The notes under the pieces were generated by a model. The model ran no database searches and was not told the DNA's origin. It was given only the letters and a program-made list of their open reading frames with translations. This document shows positions 5,984 through 47,992 of a DNA stretch of 64,000 bases, one piece after another. Source of the DNA: Arctopsyche grandis (Eukaryota; Arthropoda; Insecta; Trichoptera; Hydropsychidae); contig NC_135365.1 of assembly GCF_051622035.1 (NCBI RefSeq), positions 16,038,001 to 16,102,000 of the forward strand, written 5' to 3'. Position 1 is the first letter of the stretch; each line of letters begins with the position of its first letter. Both the position numbers and the translations under genes were made by a program.

Positions 5984-6963
5984 ATGGAAAAGAAAAGAAA
6001 AACAAAACAGTTTTGTATTATCATTTAAAGACAAATTAGATATAATCAATGCTTTATCTCTTTGAATGCTGACCAGTGCCGATCGGGGTTTTGCCAAGAA
6101 GTCCATGGGCCTGAAAAACGCCAATAGGCATCGTATTTGGAGCATGTAAAATGTAAACAAGACTGCTACCCGCTAAGCCTTTCCAGGTTGCATTGAACAT
6201 GGATCGTGTAATCCGTGTCGTTCATTTGTCAACGTTTATAAAGATTCGTTTACACCAGAATGTCTGAATTTATAACCATAGCAGAATTACCCGATGGAAA
6301 TCCCTAACTGATGAGTATTTTAGATTGTGGGCTTGGCATTTAGATTGTGAGCATTACATTATAACAACAATGAAGAAGATAGAACTGGTTTTGGAAAAAT
6401 ACATTCATTAATAGACTTATTTTGTTTATTTTATATTGTTGCAAGATATGTTAGAGAGTCTAAACACACCTTTACAAAAATCGAAATCCTTGGCGGTAGT
6501 GATCTAGGGTTTGTTTGGATTAGCTACAATTTTTATACCTGCTTTCTATTAGATTTCTAAATAATTCTAGTTGGAAATGTTGTCGAAATTCTCAGTGTGG
6601 CGGCTTTTAACAGAAAAAACGTCAGCACTCAAAGGGTTATAAATAACATATCTCAAGAAACTTTTTAAATACAAATCTCGGTTACACTGTGAATGGCCAT
6701 AATGAAAGACACATCTGTTAATACTTAAATTCAGCAAGGGTTAAAAGCAGTGTATTAGGACGATCAACGATCTCGGATATTAAAAAAAGGGATAAAAATA
6801 CACAGAAGAGGCTTGTAATTATGAAGTTTACTGATTCTTTAATGTTAGAAGACGGAATGAAGAAGTCGAAAAGTGTATTTTTATGTGGTTCATTCAAAGA
6901 CGATCGTCTGGACAGCCAATATCTGATCCATTGTTGTATGAAAAGTATTCGCGATTTGGCTAA
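5984..6963 (+). pseudogene. pogo-type transposase, broken N-terminal DNA-binding region
   Basis: An ATG opens MEKKRKTK and continues FKDKLDIINALS, the first helix-turn-helix of pogo/CENP-B proteins. It is then cut by the inserted piggyBac-type element. Downstream, in one open stretch (6845-6960), RRRNEEVEKCIFMWFIQRRS followed by SGQPISDPLLYEK is the second, CENP-B-type, helix-turn-helix, closed by a stop at 6961. STISDIKKR is also readable in another frame between them. The catalytic DDE domain is absent. The gene is dead and the element would have depended on a relative for movement. Confidence 0.75.
6058..6636. mobile_element. piggyBac-like MITE nested in the pogo remnant
   Basis: It is homologous to the clean copy at 23602-24211. 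The left end is worn (CTCTTTGAATGCTGACC) and the right end is GTCAGCACTCAAAGGG. The flanks are TTAT on both sides rather than TTAA. The adjoining 6637-6725 is also shared, inverted, with 14037-14131, so both loci descend from one composite. Confidence 0.7.
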
Positions 6964-7149
6964 AAAGAACAGCTAACTTTAAGCTGAAATCCATAATTGA
7001 ATTTCTCAATAAAGAATAATTTAATATTGATCTTCATGTTATTAAGTATATATGTATATGTAGACAAATAAAAATTATTCAGACTGAATTTACATTTTCC
7101 GGACTACCTTCATCCCCAATTAGTCTGGACAATCGTGGTTCTACTGTAT

Positions 7150-7645
7150 TTTATACGCTTCGATGGAATGTGATGTCTTCATATTGAATATAAATTGTAT
7201 CTCATATCGTGTTGGCTTCATGTTTTTGTAAGAAATGTTGTTGTTTGAGTATTTAATGCGTTACCTTTTATATCAATGTCAATATTTGTTTTCGATAAAT
7301 AGCGACACGATCAAATAAATATCATATTTTATATGTAAATGTACGAGTCGTTTGTGATTCATAAAAAACTATAATGGAATCATTATTTATATGAAATCAT
7401 TATTTTAATTGTACGTGTATTTCGTTTGATTTGGTTCAGGCTTGTGAAATTGATTCTAATAATTATGCTGTAGCAGAATTATTTTGTAATATTAGTTTGC
7501 TTTTAGTACATGTATATTTATATATTTATTATTAACAAAAAAACGGTCCATTGGCTGTGCCGCTTTTTCCAACTATTCTTAAATAATAATAAAAAAAATA
7601 CACGGCAAATAGGTCCTTCCTTCCTGAAATTTATGTATTAAAAAC
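7150..7645. other. AT-rich spacer, nothing recognised
   Basis: AT-rich sequence without coding potential or a repeat I can identify. Confidence 0.5.
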
Positions 7646-7649
7646 GCTG

Positions 7650-7735
7650 TATTGTTTGTGAGTAATTGTCCAGGAAGGCGCATTGGGGTCTTCCTTTCAA
7701 GCCTTCCTGGTATATATCTATGTAAAAATAAAATT
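7650..7735 (+). repeat. SINE 3' tail fragment
   Basis: Only the family's hairpin tail remains: CCAGGAAGGCGCATTGGGG, then GCCTTCCTGG. Confidence 0.7.
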
Positions 7736-7900
7736 TATAATCCAAGTTTTAAACTCTGAACTAAAAATTAATAGGAATCAAAAAAGTAGTAAACCGGTAC
7801 ATTTGGGCGTCCCGAAAGTTATGTTCGAAACACTAGACTGATAATTCTGTTTAATCTTTGAATTTCTAAAAAAAATTAATGACGAATATTTCAGGAAAGC

Positions 7901-10900
7901 ATGGCATTGTCAGGAAGCGGTCGGATCGTCATTATAAAACGTGACGGCCATCCGGGATCGAGCTATCCCGTGGAGACTGGCAGTCTCACTGTCGGCAGTG
8001 GCAAGGACTGTGACATAATTACTTCCAAGCTACTTCCACCGAAGCAGTGCAGAATCACTGTTCACCCTACAGAGGTCTGTTTTCGATTTATCTTCTACCT
8101 TACGATATAATATTGTTCAAATGAATAATCCATTCGGTGATTTCACACAGGCTATTATCAAAAATCTCACCCTTGAGCATCCCACTTATTTGAATGGCAA
8201 AACTTTCACCACAAAAGCGCTGAAACACTCCGATAGTATCACATTCGGTATTGCAAAGTTTAGATGGGACTATGACGGTCAACTTAGCACCCCTCATTCT
8301 TCGGCAAAGAAAGCCTCCGGTATGTTTATTTTCATATTCGTGTGTGTGTATTTCAAAAATACAAAATGCTTTTCATGATAAAGTGGTGATTTTTTGTTGT
8401 AGATAAAAAGGTATCCGTTGTTGTTAAACGTACAAGGAATAATATTAGTAAACGAAGAAGTGAGCCTGTAAGTCTGAGGAAAAAAATCGAACCGCTCGAA
8501 ACCAGAACAAGAAATAGTGTTGGAGCATTACAAGGTTTGTTTTGTTGCCTACTTACATGATATATCGAAATTTGTATGTGCCTAAATAATAATGTTGATA
8601 TTAAATGTGATTTTATTTTAGGTGCACATTCTTCGAAAACCCGTCAGATTGCTGTTGTTATGCCGCAAAGGCGAAGCTTAGTTGCTTTCGAGAATACAAA
8701 TCCCATATCTGCAACGCCTGATCATTCTCAGAGTACAGTTCGTAGTGAAAGTTACAATTCGACAGGTTAATTTCTCAATTATCGATTAAAACAATCACCA
8801 ATTTCCGATTAGGAATTGATTTTGTTAGATCTGTATTTGTAATATTGATACGGAATGTTTTTTAGTTAAGATGCGCATTAGAAAAATAAGTAATCCGTTA
8901 TACGACAATGAATCGAGGCATACACTATCCAACGGAAAGAGAAGAAGAGTCGAAAAAGTGGAAAAACTCGATACTCCTGTTGTATTAGGTTGGAATTTTG
9001 TATGATAAATTAAAATTTATGATATTTTTTAACTAAATTAATTGACAATGTGATATTTTTAGATAAAAATAAAAGGGCAGCACTGATGTTACTTACCAGA
9101 AGGAGTTTGTCGTCGAAGAAATTGAGCATTTCGAATTCGCTTAATAATTCTAAGGAAACTCCCAACTCTTCAAAAACGCTGCTGTCGAATGGCTCAAAGT
9201 CATTACCGGCGAAAATTTCAGCTGCGAGGCAACTGTTAGATGATCAGATGTCTAAAACTACTAAGATTTCATCTCGTCAATTGTTGGATCGCAAAAAAGG
9301 GTCTATCGTGTTGAAATATACATTAGAACAGCACAATGTGAGTGGAGTCGAGCCCATTGTTGGTGAATCGCCAAAGCATCCGATTGAAAATTCAGCGTCC
9401 AAAACTCCCAAAACATCAGCGTCTCCTAAAACCGTAATGGAAAAAGATAGTGTTAAGAAATCGACTGTTCCGAAAAGATCAAGATCCACTCCGTGTCCAA
9501 TGCCGGGTAATTATTTTTCATAAACAATATTGGCAGTGTTTAAATAAAGTTGTAAAAAATGATTTTTGGTGATGCTGACTTTACAGATTCGACGAAAAAG
9601 AAAATGCTCATGAAAGCTAAGGTTTCAACGCCTAAATCTTCAGCGAAAGATAAGTCATCGTTGTTGTTGTTGTCGTCGAAGTCTCTTAGAACACGATCGT
9701 TCACCCCAAAAACACCCGTAAGAGCTTTGTATCTATGATAGTATTGAAATAATACAATTATCCTTATTAATAACTTACTTGTTTTAGGCTTTGTCTGGTG
9801 GAAAAAAGGCTACGCCATTCACTAATCGAAAATTGAAAAACAAGATATTGGAGTCCGTCGAAAATTCTGTTACCGGATCGAATAAAAGCGCGTCAACGGA
9901 AAATGATGTTTCGTCATTCATATTATATCTAACTAACGCTTTGAATATTATGAATAATCCTGAAATCGATCTCGAATCTGTAACTAAAACGCCCGAATTC
10001 AAAGCTATCAGCGACAAGATCAAATCGGTGGAAAAATTGATGACTCCGATCGTTAACACACCCAGTCCACAACTTTTGGAGATTGGAAGACCCCCGAGAT
10101 TATCAAAAAGAAAGTCTGTCTCGTTAATTTCAAAAGCTTATTTAAGCCAAAGCAATAAAACTACGCCTAGAGCGGTAATCGCACAATCGCCGATTATTTC
10201 GCCAAAACACAGTTCACCGAAAACAGACGCTGATTTGACAAATTTTATCGATATCAATACTCCTAATTTAAGTACCTTGTTTGAGTTGAAGTCTTCCACC
10301 CCAAACGACGTCGACAGAAACATGGGTAATGTTGTTGATATCTCTCCAAAAACAAGATCTAGAAAATTGGGAGTGTTGAATTTGAGACGCTCGCAAATTT
10401 TGATAACCAAGTCTAAAACTGAACCCAAAAGAAAAACTAATCTTAAGAACGATCGAAAATCTTCTCCGATCCTTCCAAGTAAACGCAGTAGTAGATCAGC
10501 TGGCTTGGAACACGTTTCTGATAGCTCAAATATAACCGATCCGAATGTTTCCAGAAATGAGGATGAACTAGTTATTACACCTAAAAGTAGTTTAAAACCA
10601 CCCCAAGAAGTCCTCAAAGAAAAGCATTCTACTGCCAAGAAACCTGTTTCCAAAAAGAATATTATAGACCATCTGGTTAGATCGCCAGAAGTAGTCAAAG
10701 AGCTGTTTAAAAGTCCCGTGAAAAGGATATTGTCTCAGAGCATCCGACAGTATGGTGATTCGCATGTATTTGATGACGAACAAGATGGAGACTCGTCCTT
10801 CGAGCTTTTGACCCGATCTAGAAGAATGGGCAAAAGTATTGTCAATTCTAGCATTGAGCCAACTACAAATCAAGCCGTGAAGGTAAATTCAAGTGACAAG

Positions 10901-13900
10901 AAAAGCAAATCTCCTTCAAATAACATCAGTTCTAGACGATTACTGAGGACTCCAAAATCCCCTAAAAACGACCTCAGACACATAATAGGTGTTAAGAAAA
11001 TGTTCAAAACACCGAAGGCACAAAACTCGCCTCTCAATGATTTACGAAATGTGAAAGGACTACGTAGGATCTTTAGATCGCCGGTAAAGTCTCCTTTGAA
11101 CAATCTGAGTGATTTTGAAGGTATTCAAAATTTACTCTCACCCAATACCACCAAATCGCCTGACAATTCAGGAGACTTGAATAAAATCAAAAGATTGTTT
11201 GTATCAATAGAAGAATGTCCTAAAGTCTTTGTAAGTCCAAATGTGTCTAAAAAATCACCCAATGTTTCCAAAACGGCTAATTCGCCGAAAAATATACAAG
11301 GGCTTAAAAAATCACCAGAAACACGTACAAAAACTGTTACAAGTAAATTGAACGATTCAAATAATCTTGGAGGAGTTGGAAGACTACTCAGAACTCCGAG
11401 TATTAAAAGGTCTCCCAAAAATGATTTACGCGACATTAGAGGGGTTAAAAAATTACTCAAGACTCCGAATACCCAGAAGTCACCCGAAAATGATCTCAGT
11501 GACGTTAAAGGTGTTAAGAGATTACTCAAGACACCAAACGCCAAAAAATCGCCCAAAAATGACTTGAGAGACGTTAAAGGAGTACAAAGATTACTGAAGA
11601 CTCCAAAACCAAAGAAATCGCCCAAAAATGATCTAAGGGACGTCAAAGGTGTCAAACGATTATTGCAAACACCAAAACATACAATGAAATCGGCTCAAAA
11701 CACGCCGGATTTATCAGGACTGAGCAAGTTGTTTGAACCGTCCAAAAGCGAGAGTGTAAAAGTCAATGAAGAGAATACCTCGTCGGCTTCAAATCATGAA
11801 ATGTATAACTATTCATTAGGAAGATCACCGTTGAAAAATTACTCCAGAGATCATATTGTTTCTCGTGGTAGCGTACTTGAGAATGTCGGCCTCATTCCAA
11901 ACAAAGTCTACCATGCCCTTAAATCAGGAGAATGCTCCATGGATATTAAAAATAATATCACTCCGAATAGATCTCTTCGTCGGGGTACAATTGATAAGAC
12001 CAATTATTCTTTGGAGATCTCTAAAGTCAATTCGTGCATCAAACAAAGTTCAGACCATGCCGATAACTCCAATATTTCTATGTGTCACTCGACGCCTGCT
12101 GCCGGAAAGTCCAAAATTGGAAAAAGTGAAATCGACGTCAAACAAATTTCTCCTATTATTTCAAAATCAAGAGTTCGAGGAAGAGAATTACGGTTTGATT
12201 TTTTTTTTACTATTATTGCTGCTATATTATGTTTTAATTCTAATTGATTTCTTTTTCTTTTTAGGCAAAAGAATTTACTTGATAAAAAATCACCCAAAAA
12301 GACTAGGGCTAAATTAAGCAAATTGAAGGTAGAAGTCGTTGATGTGAAGAACGAGGATCAGATCCCTGATGAAGTGAGTGGTGCAACTTCAACTAAAACT
12401 AGAACCCGTTCCAGAGTAGTGCATACAAAAAAAATTGAAGAGGTAGCAAACACTATCAAGCTCGAGGTTGACGTTAAAGATTCGAAGAAATCGGCCAAAG
12501 TAGAAATCCATAATTTATGTTTATGCAAGTAGTGATCAGTATTATTGTATTTTTTAATGGTTTTTGTTTTTTTTTTCAGGTATCTAATGCTGTTAAAAAT
12601 CAAGTCAATAAAAAGAAAGTTACATTCGCTCTAAGCGCTGAGAAAAGTGTAGACGTACCGAAATCTACCAAAACTACAAGGTCTTCGAGGGCCAAAACAG
12701 GTAAATTTTATGCTCGTTACCTACATATTGATGAAATGTTTATATAGCCAGTAGTATAGCTCGGTGGTTGCGTTCATGCCAACCGCCGAGAGGTACAAGG
12801 CTCGAACTCTGATTTAACCATGGTTGAAAAGAATTTATTTCAAGTATTATCTTTATTGCTGCTGGTCAGACTTGGATATTTGTGACCTTCAGTTGATCCT
12901 TTCCTATCAAAGTTTGCCAATTTATCTGATTTCATTGTTGAAACGGTTCCTGCATCAAATTGGCTAAAAACGATTCTACCCACAATGTCACCACTATTTG
13001 AATATGATTTATGTACAAGTGTAAATCTATAGATTATCTTGAAATTCAGCGATTTATGTAATAAAAAAATGCTGCAATGTTTGTAATTGTCCAGGAAGGC
13101 GCATCGGGGTTTACCTGTTAGGCCTTCCTGGTATATATGTATGTAAAATTAAAATAAAAAAATCCGCAGTGCCGCTTGTCAGACTGGGATATTTAACTCC
13201 AAGTCGATTGTTTCCTATCGGAGTTTGCCGATTTATTTGATTTCATTGATGAAACGGTTCCTCGTCAAATTGGCAAAAATCATACTACCTAATATTTGTC
13301 ACCACTATTTGAATATAACTTCAAATTTATATATGTACAAGTTTAAAACCATATGTGTCGCTTTGGGGTAACCTTTAATGACATTAGTAAATTTATAGAA
13401 ATTTTAATTATAATATTAATTTTTAAAAAATTTGTGATATTTTATAGATAGTGTTGTAATTACGAAAATTACAAGGAAATCAACTTCAACTGTTAAACAA
13501 GTCAGTGTGACTGGTAAAGAAAAAGTAGGAAAGATTTCCAAACCTAAAGCTGCTGTGTCTGTCAAAGTTTCGCCTAAACGAAAAGGTTGGTTTTCTTTTC
13601 TTTACAATATTAGTGAATATTTGATTATTTTTTTTTAATAATATTGTTTTTTAGTGGTCAAAAGCAACGTTTTGAAAGTAAAATTACCCACTAAAAGCAA
13701 AACAGAAACAACGTCCACAAAAAGCTTAACATCGACTAAAAGTAAATTACCTGCAAAAAAATCAAAGGAAACTACAGAAGAGAAAACTACGAGTGAAGTA
13801 AAGAAAATTACAAAAATAGTCTCCAAGGTTGAAAAATCGTCCGTTAAAAAGTAAGCTACATATGTATTTGATCGATTCTTAACTGATGTTCAGCAGAACA

Positions 13901-14776
13901 TTTAAGTTCTGCGAGCTTGCTTTAAATGCTCCACACGATGAAGAATGTTTTTTTTTTTACCAATGATATTAAGAGAAAAAAATACCAATAAAATTCTTGA
14001 CATATCAAAGATTTCGTCTGAAACGAATGAGTCAGGAATTTAAGTATTATCAGATGTGTCTTTCATTATGGCCATTCACAGTGTAACCGAGATTTGTATT
14101 TAAAAAGTTTCTTGAGATATGTTATTTATAACCCTTTGAGTGCTGACGTTTTGAAGCCCGCCACACTGAAAATTTCGCCAACTTTTCAACTAGAATTATT
14201 TAGAAATCCAATAGAAAGCAGGTATAAAAGTTGTAACTAATCCAAACAAACCCTAGATAACTACCACTGAAGATTTCAAGTTTTGTAAAGGTTTGCTTAG
14301 ATTCTCTAATATATCTTGCAACAATATAAAATAAACAGAAGAAGTCTATTAATGAATGTATTTTTCCAAAACTAGTTCCATCTTCTTCTTCTTTGTTGTT
14401 AAAATGTAATGCTCACAATCTATAGGTAAATTCCAAGCCACTATCTAAAATACTCAGCAGTTAGGTATTTCCATCGGGAAATTCTGCTATGGTTATAAAT
14501 TCAGAAATGCCGGTGTAAACCAGTCTGTATGAACATTGACATGGAATGCACGACCCATGTTCAATGCTATCTGGAAAGGCTTAGCGAGTAGTATTCTTGG
14601 CAAAACGCCAGCATTCAAAGGGTTTAACTAATATGAATTGGAATCTGCAAATATTTCACTGTTAAAATGCACTAACAAACATTACTATTAGATTTCGTTT
14701 AAAATTCTGTATTTTTTTTAGGTCTCCAATCGCACGAAGAAGTACAAGATCGACAGCATTAGCGAAAAAAAACTAA
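7901..14776 (+). CDS. MKI67-like: Ki-67-like protein: FHA domain, 23-aa repeats, PP1-docking motif (about 1,488 aa)
   Basis: Thirteen exons with GT/AG borders and compatible phases: 7901-8074, 8151-8319, 8403-8534, 8622-8765, 8866-8988, 9063-9506, 9587-9717, 9788-12192, 12265-12499, 12580-12700, 13448-13585, 13655-13850, 14722-14776 (4,467 nt). Residues 7-96 form an FHA domain beginning GRIVIIKRDGHPGSSYPVE, with CDI, KQCRITVH and LNG blocks placed as in vertebrate Ki-67. Exon 8 encodes two tandem blocks of 23-aa units (residues about 820-910 and 968-1090) with cores such as GVKRLLKTP and many S/T-P-x-K sites of CDK type. KKVTF (residues 1331-1335) is an RVxF docking site for protein phosphatase 1. 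The C-terminus is Lys/Ser/Thr-rich. Vertebrate Ki-67 coats mitotic chromosomes and recruits PP1; the same role is inferred here. Odd: canonical phosphothreonine-binding residues of the FHA domain are replaced. The donor after residue 1319 (AAA|GTAGAA) is the least certain junction. Confidence 0.82.
10930..11740 (+). repeat. coding tandem repeats (69-bp unit) of the Ki-67-like protein
   Basis: About eleven units in two blocks, 10930-11200 (diverged) and 11371-11740 (regular, five units of exactly 23 aa plus a worn one). The pattern per unit is G-V-K-x-L-L-K-T-P, a short linker, K-S-P-K-N-D-L-R-D-V-K. Indels keep the frame, and third-position differences outnumber changes in the core, which suggests selection on the protein. 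Confidence 0.9.
12613..12627 (+). other. RVxF-type PP1-docking motif (KKVTF)
   Basis: Residues 1331-1335 read K-K-V-T-F, preceded by basic residues (NK), matching the [KR]-x-V-x-F docking pattern of PP1 regulatory subunits. In vertebrate Ki-67 the motif lies between the FHA domain and the repeats; here it lies after the repeats. Confidence 0.6.
12748..13157 (+). repeat. tRNA-derived SINE, head type 1, in intron 10
   Basis: A full-length copy with a clear tRNA-like head: TAGCTCGGTGGTTGCG (box A region) and AGGCTCGAACTC (box B region). The shared body follows, then the tail hairpin CCAGGAAGGC/GCCTTCCTGG. Confidence 0.85.
13165..13375 (+). repeat. SINE body fragment
   Basis: A headless and tailless copy of the SINE body, directly behind the full copy and in the same orientation (TTGTTTCCTATCGGAGTTTG, GATGAAACGGTTCC). 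Confidence 0.75.
14037..14622 (-). mobile_element. piggyBac-like MITE with pogo-locus flank, in the last intron of the Ki-67-like gene
   Basis: The element proper runs from CCCTTTGAGTGCTGACG at 14132 to CATTCAAAGGG at 14622, in reverse relative to 6058-6636. The adjoining 14037-14131 matches 6637-6725, so this copy carries sequence beyond the element's border. Confidence 0.7.
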
Positions 14777-15450
14777 ACAAGTCAATTACTAGTTCTTCGT
14801 TTAAATTGAATTTTAATTTATTTATGTCGGTGTATAATGCAATAGAAACGTAATGCAATTTAATTGATTTAAAATATAAAGTACAAAAGATATTAATTTT
14901 AATTGATTACTTTTTGCTGTCTGGTATTCTCTAATACCGCTATAAATTTAAAATGACTTATTATATACATATAAGTTTGAGTTTCTATTATAGTAAAATT
15001 TTCTTAAATTTATTTAACAAAGGATATCTTTTGTTTGAGTTTGCTTTAATTTTTGTTTTGGCTTGTTTTTGTGTGTTTTTAAGCTCTTTTTTTTATGAAT
15101 CTTGATTTTTAATTTTTCAAATCGCTACCATGCGATTATTTATTTTGAATTATGGCTTAAAGGAATAATTATAGATGTATATTTTTTTGAAACACAACTT
15201 AAACAATTTGTTGAAGTACATTGACTCAATAGTGATGTTAATTTACCTGGAGAAATAAAGATTAATTATATTAGATACATTTATGGGAGACAGTGAATAA
15301 TATAGTAACATTTATAGTAATCTAATAAAAAATATGAATAACTAACTACATGCTGAGTGGGGGACGACACAATTAGAGATTATATATATTTATATACATA
15401 TTTTATGGATTTTATATTTTGTAATGAAATTTTAAATAAATAAGAAAAAT
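14777..15450 (+). other. probable 3' untranslated region of the Ki-67-like gene
   Basis: AT-rich sequence after the stop codon. Candidate polyadenylation signals include AATATAAAG near 14873 and AAATAAATAAG near 15434. The end is not determined. Confidence 0.4.
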
Positions 15451-15459
15451 GTGGCATCT

Positions 15460-16650
15460 TTTTTCTCATTCAATAATTGGCGTTTTGTCTTGAATCTTAA
15501 TTCTTCCTTTTAATTTAAATCTAGCCTTATAGAAAGACGCTATCATATTACAAAGTGCTCATTGTTCTTATTTTGATTTTGTTTGGATTAGATTTGATAA
15601 AGTATCATTAAATGTAACAATATTTATATGAAAATTGAGTGAGTACAACCTTACAATAAAAAATTTTGATATAATTTTAATACAAAGTACAATTAATATT
15701 AAATTTTATTTAAGAATCATAATTTGGTTGTGTACATACTTTAATGGAAAATCTTACCATATATTTTTATAAAATGTATAATATAAACTTTATATTATTA
15801 TGAAGGCATGATTTCATCGTCAATAATTTACCATTTATGAGTATCGGATCTTCTAAGTATAAATTATATGGCATAAAAATCTAGAAGGAAATACTTACCC
15901 AGCCATTAATGATCCTCATACATATTATACGTAGATGGATATATTTTTGGATTGAAATTTAGTGAAATTTTATATAAGGAATAATTATAATAGTATTTTT
16001 AACTGGAATAAATAAAATTGCTCATCAGGATACAATTAGAGTTATTATTATAGTTTCTATACTGTCGCTGGAATTTCGTCACACAGCTCAAACGAAATGC
16101 CAATTCAATTATCGAATATTGTGCTATTATTACATATTATTTTGAATTTGAACTTTACTATATTCATTTAAATTGTCTTTTACTTCACATTTTATATTGT
16201 AAAAACTGAGAAATGTGCCTTATCTAATGTTTAATGAACAATATGATCGTTTGTGGATTAGCAATAATACATATACATATATATACACTTTGAATTTGTA
16301 AGATTTGCGTAATTTAGGTTTTTTCAAATGTGCTAGTATATAAATGATGCATTTGCTGAAAAATAACTAATAAATAATTTTATATGGCTACTTTATGTTT
16401 TTATTGCTGAATTCTGCTTATTATTTTTTTGTATATAGACTCTTCTGTTTCTATTCCTTTATCCTTTATTATAAGAAGTAGAAGTTATTTGTTGAACTTT
16501 CAGGAATTTATTTTCGATATGAGTCGTGAACATATATACTATATTTTTTTAATAAAACTTAATTCAACGGCCATCATTACAGCGTGTTTTAGATCCTCCA
16601 AACTTCATAAAAAAAAGTATTTTTTAAATGATTTAGTTTTAAACTTCCAT
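15460..16650. other. AT-rich intergenic sequence, nothing recognised
   Basis: Very AT-rich spacer between two tail-to-tail genes. No gene or defined repeat is seen. Confidence 0.5.
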
Positions 16651-46084: not shown

Positions 46085-46500
46085 GTGGCAGCGCTAATTC
46101 GCACAAGGAAGGGTAATCGCACGTATCCTTTTGGTTAGCACAACAGCCTTTTGGTGGTGTTGATTGTGGCGATAGGCGTTCCGAAATGGAGACAAGTGGG
46201 GGAGAGGGGGAGAGGGGGCTCCATGGGATGAACGGGGGCGGAGTCGTCGGCTTTTCACGGTGGGGGCGACAAGGGGAGAGAGGGGGAGGGATCGCGAGCC
46301 CCGCGGCCGCCAGTTGACAGCAGCTGGCCGACCGCGACTCATTCGAGTGGCGCGCTACCCCGCACAAACACACACACTCACAACACCTGTCACTATCAAT
46401 TTTACACGGTTCTTTTTACACCGATGTGTCGTGTCGTGAAGTTACAAAAAGATATGGTGCGACCGCTCTGTGATCGAGTTTAACTATCCGCACTGCCAAC
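46085..46500 (+). promoter_or_regulatory. CpG-rich promoter/5' UTR of the C15-like homeobox gene
   Basis: An abrupt GC-rich block with long purine runs and GCCCCGCGGCCGCCAG lies directly before the start codon. The last bases before the ATG are CTGCCAAC, a good insect translation start context. No TATA box is evident. Confidence 0.55.
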
Positions 46501-47224
46501 ATGTCTTCCCTGCATTCGGACGAGGACCAGGAAGAGATAAACGTGGACACTGACAGCAGACTATCGGCAGGATGTGACCAATCAGATAGGGAATCGGACC
46601 GAGAGCGTTCCGAGTCGTACAGTCCTCGGATGAGGCACGATGGACATTCGATGTCGCCGGATTTGCACAGGAATCACCTGACCAATTCCCAGACGCATCC
46701 CACGCAAATTTCGCTGCCTTTCAGCATCTCGAGACTTCTAGGGAAATCTTTCGATGATGAAAAGGGACTTGTTAGTGTGGCGAGGCGCGGTGTTAATGAT
46801 CTGATCGACAGGATACAGAGGAGGGATTCCAATGAGGATACGACGGATGAGGAGGGAAGGTTGAGGAGCGATAACGATAATGATAACGAGTCTGATGGTG
46901 CTCGGGAGGAGTATAGAAGAGTCAGGTTTAGTGTGGACAATGAGGGTGATCCGGAAGGGACCAGGGACGAATATAGGAAGTTGAGGGAGAGCGCTGGTGG
47001 ATGTTTGGGTGCTAATTCTGGAGGTGGGAACTTGGGTTATGGTGTCGCAGGAGCAGGACTCGGTGGTGGTGTGTTGCGTGTGCCGGCTCAGCGTGCTTTG
47101 GGAGCTTTGGGAGGATTAGGAGCTTTGGGTCCATTGGGACCTTTACCTTGGGGTTTGCCATTGGATCCTCGCCATGCTGCAGCCGCCGCTTTCGCTCACC
47201 ACGTTGTCAAGGATCGTTTGAATG
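46501..47224 (+). CDS. C15: NK-like homeobox protein, first coding exon, probably C15/clawless (TLX family); partial
   Basis: The exon gives 241 codons plus one base and ends at the donor AATG|GTAATT. The N-terminus is acidic (MSSLHSDEDQEEINVDTDS). LPFSISRLLGK (about residues 75-85) is an engrailed-homology-1 motif, which binds the Groucho co-repressor. An acidic, charged middle region, a Gly/Leu/Pro-rich stretch and poly-Ala follow. The exon closes with VVKDRLNG, which resembles the conserved KDR segment just before the homeodomain in TLX proteins, and the exon break fits. C15 acts in insect distal-leg patterning. The homeodomain itself is not in the window, so the family call rests on these flanking motifs; another NK-cluster member remains possible. 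Kozak context and the upstream CpG island support this ATG. Confidence 0.68.
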
Positions 47225-47992
47225 GTAATTATTTCTATGTAGTTAAATTCACTATGAGATTTTTTTTTAAATAATTTTACATAAAAATTTATATAAGCCG
47301 GTTGTTTTGTTTTTATTTTTATTTTTAGTTGTTAAAACGAAATATTTCATAGAGTAAAGTCAGCAATCAAAAAACTGCATTGCAACTTTTGAACGTGATA
47401 TTTAAAATATATTAACATACATACATAAAACTCGGTTATGCTTCAGATTAGTTTTCAAAAATATTCAATTTAGAAAAGATCTAATTTTATGTATATATAC
47501 AAATATACAGATATGTATATTTAATTAAGGATATTTGATAGTAGAATTTTTAATTCGAAATACTTTTTATTATTATTTACGGTATATGCACATAAGTTTA
47601 ATTGAATCATTTACTTCCATCCGTATTTAATTCAATATGATAAGGATAAGAACAGGTTAATGATATTATTCCAAAACGTATACTATATCTATGTTAGACA
47701 AATTCTTATTAGAATCTCATAAGATGTATCGGAAAAATGAAAGAATAGCATGATTTTCTTTATGTGTACAGCTCTTTATATGTAGTATATACCTACATAG
47801 TGGAATACATTTTTTGTCGATTTAAAAATACTTGTGAAAGGCTGCATAGCCGATGGACGCAAAAGTTTTAATTGTGGCGATGCAAATTTTCCGTCGGAAA
47901 TATGTGTTGATATTATATTTTTATTCAACTATTCAAGTTTCATAAAAATATTTTTAATTAGTTTAAAAATTGATAGACATTAAAAATATACA

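Follow-up and report, generated by a model that had tools for sequence, protein, structure and literature searches.

A predicted Ki-67 family member in the caddisfly Arctopsyche grandis lacking two hallmarks of vertebrate Ki-67

Ki-67 is a marker of dividing cells worldwide, and insects have scarcely been considered in work on it. Here we describe a Ki-67-type gene of the caddisfly Arctopsyche grandis (Trichoptera, Hydropsychidae), located at 7901-14776 of a 64,000 nt stretch of contig NC_135365.1 (positions 16,038,001 to 16,102,000, assembly GCF_051622035.1), hereafter the window. In the human protein, CDK1-phosphorylated repeats are reported to form alternating charge blocks, typically of 30-40 aa, and to promote phase separation at the chromosome periphery, with a repeat unit of ~110 aa (PMC9106583); elsewhere the unit is put at ~120 aa in human and ~60 aa in chicken (PMC8354752). 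The PP1 domain of Ki-67 and RepoMan is described as an RVxF motif followed by a KiR-SLiM, FDxxLP(P/A)N(T/S)PL(R/K)(R/K)G (PMC5005033). Beyond vertebrates, Ki-67 has been reported in Ciona, Saccoglossus, Hydra and Trichoplax (PMC4032110) and in Platynereis (PMC12669781), and a fungal protein, bridgin, has been noted to have Ki67 as its metazoan homolog (PMC7794384). The Platynereis paper, from 2025, states that its authors knew of no phylogenetically validated invertebrate orthologs beyond their annelid (PMC12669781). The original prediction for this locus, made from the letters alone, took Ki-67 to be known mainly from vertebrates, a view that these reports show to be wrong or incomplete, as do insect proteins already named Ki-67-like; Ki-67 names are in the databases for Schistocerca, Ostrinia furnacalis, Daphnia carinata, Polyplax and two ladybirds. 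Membership of insect proteins in the family is not new as such. Open-access text searches, which did not cover subscription journals, preprints or supplements, found no paper on an insect Ki-67 among the matches listed, and within the same searches the family-wide short repeat unit and the insect losses described below were not found in print.

Judged by its sequence, the caddisfly gene is a member of the Ki-67 family without two of the vertebrate hallmarks, and the prediction of an insect Ki-67 gene that combines an FHA domain with a Ki-67-type repeat in one protein is supported by the comparisons that follow. Tandem Repeats Finder detected a 69 nt period at 11414-11678 (score 270), and the repeats include a main array and a separate pair of units:

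11330..11674, + strand, main tandem array of five 23-aa units, residues 954-1068
10946..11083, + strand, two repeat units, residues 826-871, cores GVKKMFKTP and GLRRIFRSP, 23 aa apart

The consensus of the main array is about SPKNDLRDVKGVKRLLKTP plus a 4-aa basic linker. Its five successive cores lie 23 aa apart (residues 968-1060), as do the pair at residues 840 and 863, and a lone core is found at residue 741; both the 69 nt period and the core spacing agree with the unit length of 23 aa first proposed. All of these repeats lie within one exon (exon 8), and the vertebrate Ki-67 array is likewise described as encoded in a single exon (PMC8354752). Cut out of the protein, residues 820-1092 match KI67R (PF08065) at 33.4 bits (cut-off 32.4). 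In a control on a 115-aa piece of the array, one and the same permutation of the 23 positions was applied to each unit; with the absence of a reported match scored as 0, the best phmmer value for 36 vertebrate proteins fell from 239 bits to 0 or below in 200 of 200 permutations. This speaks against a vertebrate similarity due to low-complexity S/T-P-K composition. A tandem repeat with a vertebrate Ki-67-like core had been proposed, and the KI67R match, the retrieval of vertebrate Ki-67s and the permutation control all bear it out.

A search restricted to residues 820-1100 returned 341 proteins at E ≤10, and the family counts given here concern the best 120 of the 341; retrieval was limited to proteins of 818-2604 aa, which excluded human Ki-67. 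Among the matches listed are insects (locusts, crickets, cockroaches, a termite, a stick insect, lice, planthoppers, many beetles, moths and a butterfly), Daphnia, shrimps, crabs, a lobster and vertebrate Ki-67s, the last matching the repeat region with E-values down to 1e-44 (echidna, P0062) and 1e-48 (P0055). The repeat alone selected these proteins, and even so 71 of the other 119 listed have an N-terminal FHA domain that begins no later than residue 60, which indicates that FHA and repeat form one architecture; the 48 with no recognisable FHA include models that are partial, pieces of metagenomes and several that look full-length, such as Danio P0115. Independent gene models of locust, cricket, cockroach, termite, louse, beetles, a moth and crustaceans also unite the two features, which speaks against their belonging to two different transcripts. 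In the moths and the butterfly listed (P0118, P0109, P0097, P0098 and P0099), which belong to the sister group of caddisflies, the array can scarcely be made out, with 0-2 cores by pattern, and the search still retrieves them. No dipteran or hymenopteran name appears among the best 120 of 341; as 36 of these 120 have no organism label, absence from these orders does not follow. For many insect and Daphnia Ki-67s the name in the databases is misleading, for example WASH complex subunit 2-like, cell wall protein DAN4, serine-rich adhesin, titin, golgin IMH1 and SRRM2-like.

The FHA domain of the caddisfly protein occupies residues 7-101, encoded by exons 1-2. The isolated segment matches PF00498 at 31.5 bits (cut-off 20.7) and PF16697 at 36.4 bits (cut-off 33.2). 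In a search of the PDB its best match is Ki-67 (8.1e-13), the next different protein being a bacterial GGDEF protein at 0.0015; a 13-member arthropod FHA profile that includes the caddisfly finds Ki-67 at 2.7e-31, with the next match at 3.4e-13 and KIF13B, CHFR, MDC1, RAD53 and others ranking below Ki-67. Scored with a profile of 12 vertebrate Ki-67 FHA domains, the caddisfly domain reaches 57.8 bits, and none of eight further FHA exons in this genome exceeds 16.0. In a separate control, 200 residue-shuffled domains gave a maximum of 7.5 bits against 50.1 for the real one. The predicted resemblance to the Ki-67 FHA domain is supported by the PDB match and the vertebrate-profile score, and a better match to an unrelated family was sought in the PDB and none was found.

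Several results weigh against assigning the protein to Ki-67. A Pfam scan of the whole protein reports neither KI67R, whose cut-off the cut-out segment clears by 1 bit, nor PF00498, the one FHA match being to PF16697 at 31 bits and under the cut-off. KI67R is also absent from whole-protein scans of nine of nine other insect proteins, and the 12 matches of a genome-wide PF00498 search do not include this gene. A word-based search with the FHA region retrieved the query alone, so the domain is too diverged for retrieval by words. Among beetles the FHA signal fades, to the point where some ladybird domains (Coccinella, P0031, 11.4 bits with the vertebrate profile) score no better than unrelated FHA controls.

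Annotation of the locus gave 13 exons separated by 12 GT/AG introns, and together they form a single frame of 1488 aa:

7901..8074, + strand, exon 1: start codon and first half of FHA, residues 1-58
8151..8319, + strand, exon 2: second half of FHA (to about residue 101), then linker
8403..8534, + strand, exon 3: linker, basic and disordered
8622..8765, + strand, exon 4: linker
8866..8988, + strand, exon 5: linker
9063..9506, + strand, exon 6: Ser/Lys-rich linker with S/T-P-K sites
9587..9717, + strand, exon 7: linker
9788..12192, + strand, exon 8: 2405 nt, containing every Ki-67-type repeat
12265..12499, + strand, exon 9: start of the basic tail
12580..12700, + strand, exon 10: basic tail, including the KVxF motif
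13448..13585, + strand, exon 11: basic tail
13655..13850, + strand, exon 12: Lys-rich tail
14722..14776, + strand, exon 13: final 18 residues and stop codon

The joined product equals the NCBI model LOC143918868, an "uncharacterized protein", at 100% identity over 100% of its length, and the predicted exon borders match that model; the exons join into one frame, as first proposed. A six-frame search of the whole assembly (475.7 Mb) with the joined protein gave 12 matches, every one within the locus, and thus no second gene copy was seen in that search; the 18-residue exon 13 is below the matchable length and is present in the NCBI model. The cyclin-dependent kinase (CDK)-type sites that had been noted are confirmed by shuffling: there are 57 S/T-P sites against a mean of 20.6 (maximum 35 in 1000 shuffles), 20 S/T-P-K sites against 2.9 (maximum 11), and, with residues 820-1100 excluded, 35 S/T-P sites against 16.0 (maximum 29). 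The predicted basic tail is also present, the last 124 aa having a net charge of +30 and a pI of 10.9. With 26% K, 4% R and 4% L it is Lys-rich, and in composition unlike the leucine/arginine-rich (LR) chromatin-binding domain of Ki-67.

With a profile of the PP1 region from 11 vertebrate proteins, 16 proteins from outside the vertebrates matched at E-values no worse than 3.2e-11. They belong to Daphnia (under that name or unlabelled), to Petrolisthes and, in two cases, to an unnamed source, and in all 16 the domain sits directly after the FHA, at residues ~129-201. The canonical PP1/KiR-SLiM domains of Daphnia and Petrolisthes score 1e-11 to 1e-15 with this vertebrate-only profile, and their position after a crustacean FHA ties the arthropod members to Ki-67 specifically. 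With the same profile, the domain was found in seven of seven named crustacean proteins with a complete FHA (two genera) and in none of 21 such insect proteins, the caddisfly included, whose best score was -0.8 bits. Nor did a six-frame search of 7000-16000 show an unannotated PP1 exon, the best E being 0.31 compared with 7.8e-13 for the Petrolisthes control. Since this region is the one homology between RepoMan and Ki-67, and the insect protein lacks it, the caddisfly gene is ruled out as a RepoMan. The PP1-docking motif first described proved to be of the KVxF type:

12613..12627, + strand, KKVTF, RVxF-like, residues 1331-1335, after the repeats

The motif itself stands, and as the PP1-docking domain of Ki-67 it is ruled out by its position after the repeats and by the lack of a KiR-SLiM. 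After the last core, a [KR]VxF match occurs in 11 of the 20 insect proteins chosen, where shuffles predict 1.8, and in 7 of the 13 vertebrate ones, where they predict 1.3 (amniotes 7/7, fishes 0/6), these counts coming from a pattern picked post hoc and from mutually related, hand-chosen proteins (20 of 36 named insect, 13 of 38 vertebrate). As a lead, the C-terminal KVxF may be a second PP1-type dock.

The second hallmark concerns the phosphothreonine pocket, for which the conserved FHA residues are given as Gly, Arg, Ser, His and Asn (PMC4037201). The caddisfly domain retains Gly alone, with S, P, Q and H at the other four positions. In an alignment of 29 rows the Arg is replaced by S, G or T in 13/13 Holometabola and 2/2 Orthoptera, and is retained in 5/5 vertebrates, 3/3 crustaceans, 2/2 Blattodea (cockroach and termite) and the louse; a gapped moth row, an unnamed beetle-like row with T and an unnamed row with R stand outside these counts. 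Given accepted insect relationships, this distribution needs at least two losses of the Arg. Relatives that have the remaining architecture vary at the pocket, so it is not required for membership in the family.

The charge of nine insect arrays, +15.0 to +19.1 per 100 aa, exceeds that of five vertebrate arrays (+2.1 to +10.4); with every S/T-P phosphorylated, the computed insect values become -7.8 to +4.3. The caddisfly tail stays positive after computed full phosphorylation, its final two bins standing at +18 and +17, and the spread of charge among its 25-aa windows barely shifts (1.7 to 1.8). Under the published block criterion as interpreted here, full phosphorylation yields 35-aa alternating blocks, three positive and one negative in the caddisfly and five and four in Coccinella. 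The idea that short arrays are incapable of any charge blocks is not borne out by these small blocks. By analogy with vertebrate Ki-67, the basic tail would hold the protein on chromatin. At mitotic entry CDK1 would phosphorylate the two S/T-P sites of each unit and shift the strong positive charge of the array to near neutrality, and the protein would thereby become a scaffold that coats mitotic chromosomes, and in interphase a nucleolar or heterochromatin scaffold. In insects the protein would act without a KiR-type PP1 dock, and in Holometabola and Orthoptera also without a normal phosphothreonine pocket. In our own reading, the switch would operate by neutralisation and not by unit-sized diblocks.

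The same losses could instead mean that a Ki-67-derived protein has taken on a changed role in insects, for example as a linker of kinetochore or heterochromatin like bridgin, keeping only the array and basic tail. Lost phosphothreonine contacts and a missing PP1 domain would fit this, as would the Ki67-like bridgin itself, in which an FHA is joined to a basic DNA-binding region that is reported to be replaceable by that of human Ki67 (PMC7794384). However, crustaceans, insects and vertebrates have all retained the repeat core with its S-P/T-P sites, suggesting the same CDK-regulated use, and we regard a changed role as unlikely.

The unit length was the other point on which the caddisfly had appeared to stand apart, the original prediction having put vertebrate units at over 100 aa. 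This is contradicted by the proteins listed, in which the commonest core spacing is 20 or 21 aa in 37 of 38 vertebrates (the remaining one has 38), the short-spaced ones including fish, reptiles, birds and the echidna (20). Five of 11 named crustacean proteins listed have 24 aa, and six show no distance at least three times; for the 35 other named insect proteins listed the spacing is 23 aa in 23, 21 aa in one and not clear in 11. Self-similarity at fixed lags is consistent with 20-24 aa. The unit consensus is KSPKNDL-x-DVRGVKKLLKTP-like in insects, SPeADYTqVaGVKKLMKTP-like in Petrolisthes and KEKSEPVDDLVGVSRLLRTP in the echidna. A repeat of 20-24 aa is probably ancestral, and the 110-120 aa human unit seems, in a compared set without therian sequences, to be a later enlargement that arose within mammals, since the echidna unit stands at 20 aa. 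The comparison is biased towards short units by the 23-aa period of the query and by the limit of 818-2604 aa, with no human sequence, and to that extent the argument for a short ancestor is weakened. Of the two origins offered at first, the short ancestral form is favoured. The other, that the ancestral unit exceeded 100 aa and insects lost a spacer, draws its sole support from the published human unit of ~110-120 aa (PMC8354752, PMC9106583), and is made very improbable by the 20-21 aa spacing in vertebrates and 24 aa in crustaceans; as the vertebrate spacing is already this short, insects very probably miniaturised nothing and lost no spacer. An artefactual frame, in which exons of different genes supply the FHA and the repeat and the similarity is owed to low-complexity S/T-P-K sequence, can be dismissed almost entirely, for despite strong composition bias and predicted exon borders an independent NCBI model is identical, many independent models unite FHA and repeat, and the permutation and shuffle controls oppose it.

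Considering all of the analyses, we think it likely that the gene encodes a Ki-67 acting as a CDK-switched scaffold without a KiR dock or a normal pocket, and that the short unit is ancestral. A more specific version is tentative, and we hold it to be possible but somewhat doubtful. It states that insects have lost the two docking functions most studied in vertebrates, phospho-partner binding by the FHA and recruitment of PP1 by the KiR domain; the loss of the PP1 domain would extend to every insect sampled, that of the FHA pocket at least to Orthoptera and Holometabola. The array and tail would be kept as a bare, charge-switched polyelectrolyte coat, the array shifting uniformly from some +17 charges per 100 aa to near 0, in place of the unit-sized positive/negative diblocks proposed for the long human repeats; the long unit would be a mammalian innovation, and the C-terminal KVxF may be an overlooked conserved dock of phosphatase type. 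A family minus the PP1 dock and the phospho-pocket, with array and tail kept, amounts to a natural separation-of-function experiment. The insect protein makes it testable which part the mitotic chromosome coat needs, and whether charge switching works with units of 20-24 aa, shorter than the typical blocks of 30-40 aa.

Other features of the window include a ~500 bp inverted repeat that flanks the gene (6158-6732 and 14036-14599), its second arm inside the last intron; it makes up four of the five pairs found (arms 62-215 nt, 85-99% complementary) and is probably a mobile element in two oppositely oriented copies. A 78-nt direct repeat (87% identity), upstream of the gene at 7657-7734 and in intron 10 at 13078-13155, looks like a short interspersed element. 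At 46474-47274 is an open frame of 266 aa with an acidic stretch followed by a Gly/Ala-rich part; it has no Pfam match, and its FSISRLLG stretch resembles a repressor motif of homeodomain proteins. A scan of positions 1-64000 against Rfam found no family at the gathering score.

Among described systems, RepoMan (CDCA2) has a PP1 domain in common with vertebrate Ki-67, which is reported to be their sole homology (PMC5005033). Bridgin, a basidiomycete kinetochore protein and in that unlike Ki-67, has an FHA and a basic region and is described as Ki67-like (PMC7794384). Closer are the insect proteins: in Schistocerca (P0004), Acanthoscelides (P0005) and Periplaneta (P0011) the repeat region is 46-49% identical to that of the caddisfly, and in Coccinella (P0031) 44%, and these four and Galleria (P0118) share with it an N-terminal FHA and the lack of a KiR domain. 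Cockroach, termite and louse differ in retaining the FHA Arg, and Galleria in having an eroded array with one core found. Crustacean Ki-67 (Daphnia, Petrolisthes) resembles the caddisfly protein in its FHA and basic character, belongs to the family by repeat and FHA, and has units of ~24 aa; unlike the caddisfly it keeps both the canonical PP1/KiR domain and the FHA Arg. Vertebrate Ki-67 (pigeon P0002, echidna P0062) is similar in having an N-terminal FHA, a long disordered middle and a basic C-terminus, and in its repeats the core G-[VI]-K/x-x-L-[LM]-x-T-P likewise follows a D-L-like stretch, spaced at 20-21 aa compared with 23 in the caddisfly; it differs in its intact phosphothreonine pocket and in the RVxF plus KiR-SLiM PP1 domain that precedes the repeats.

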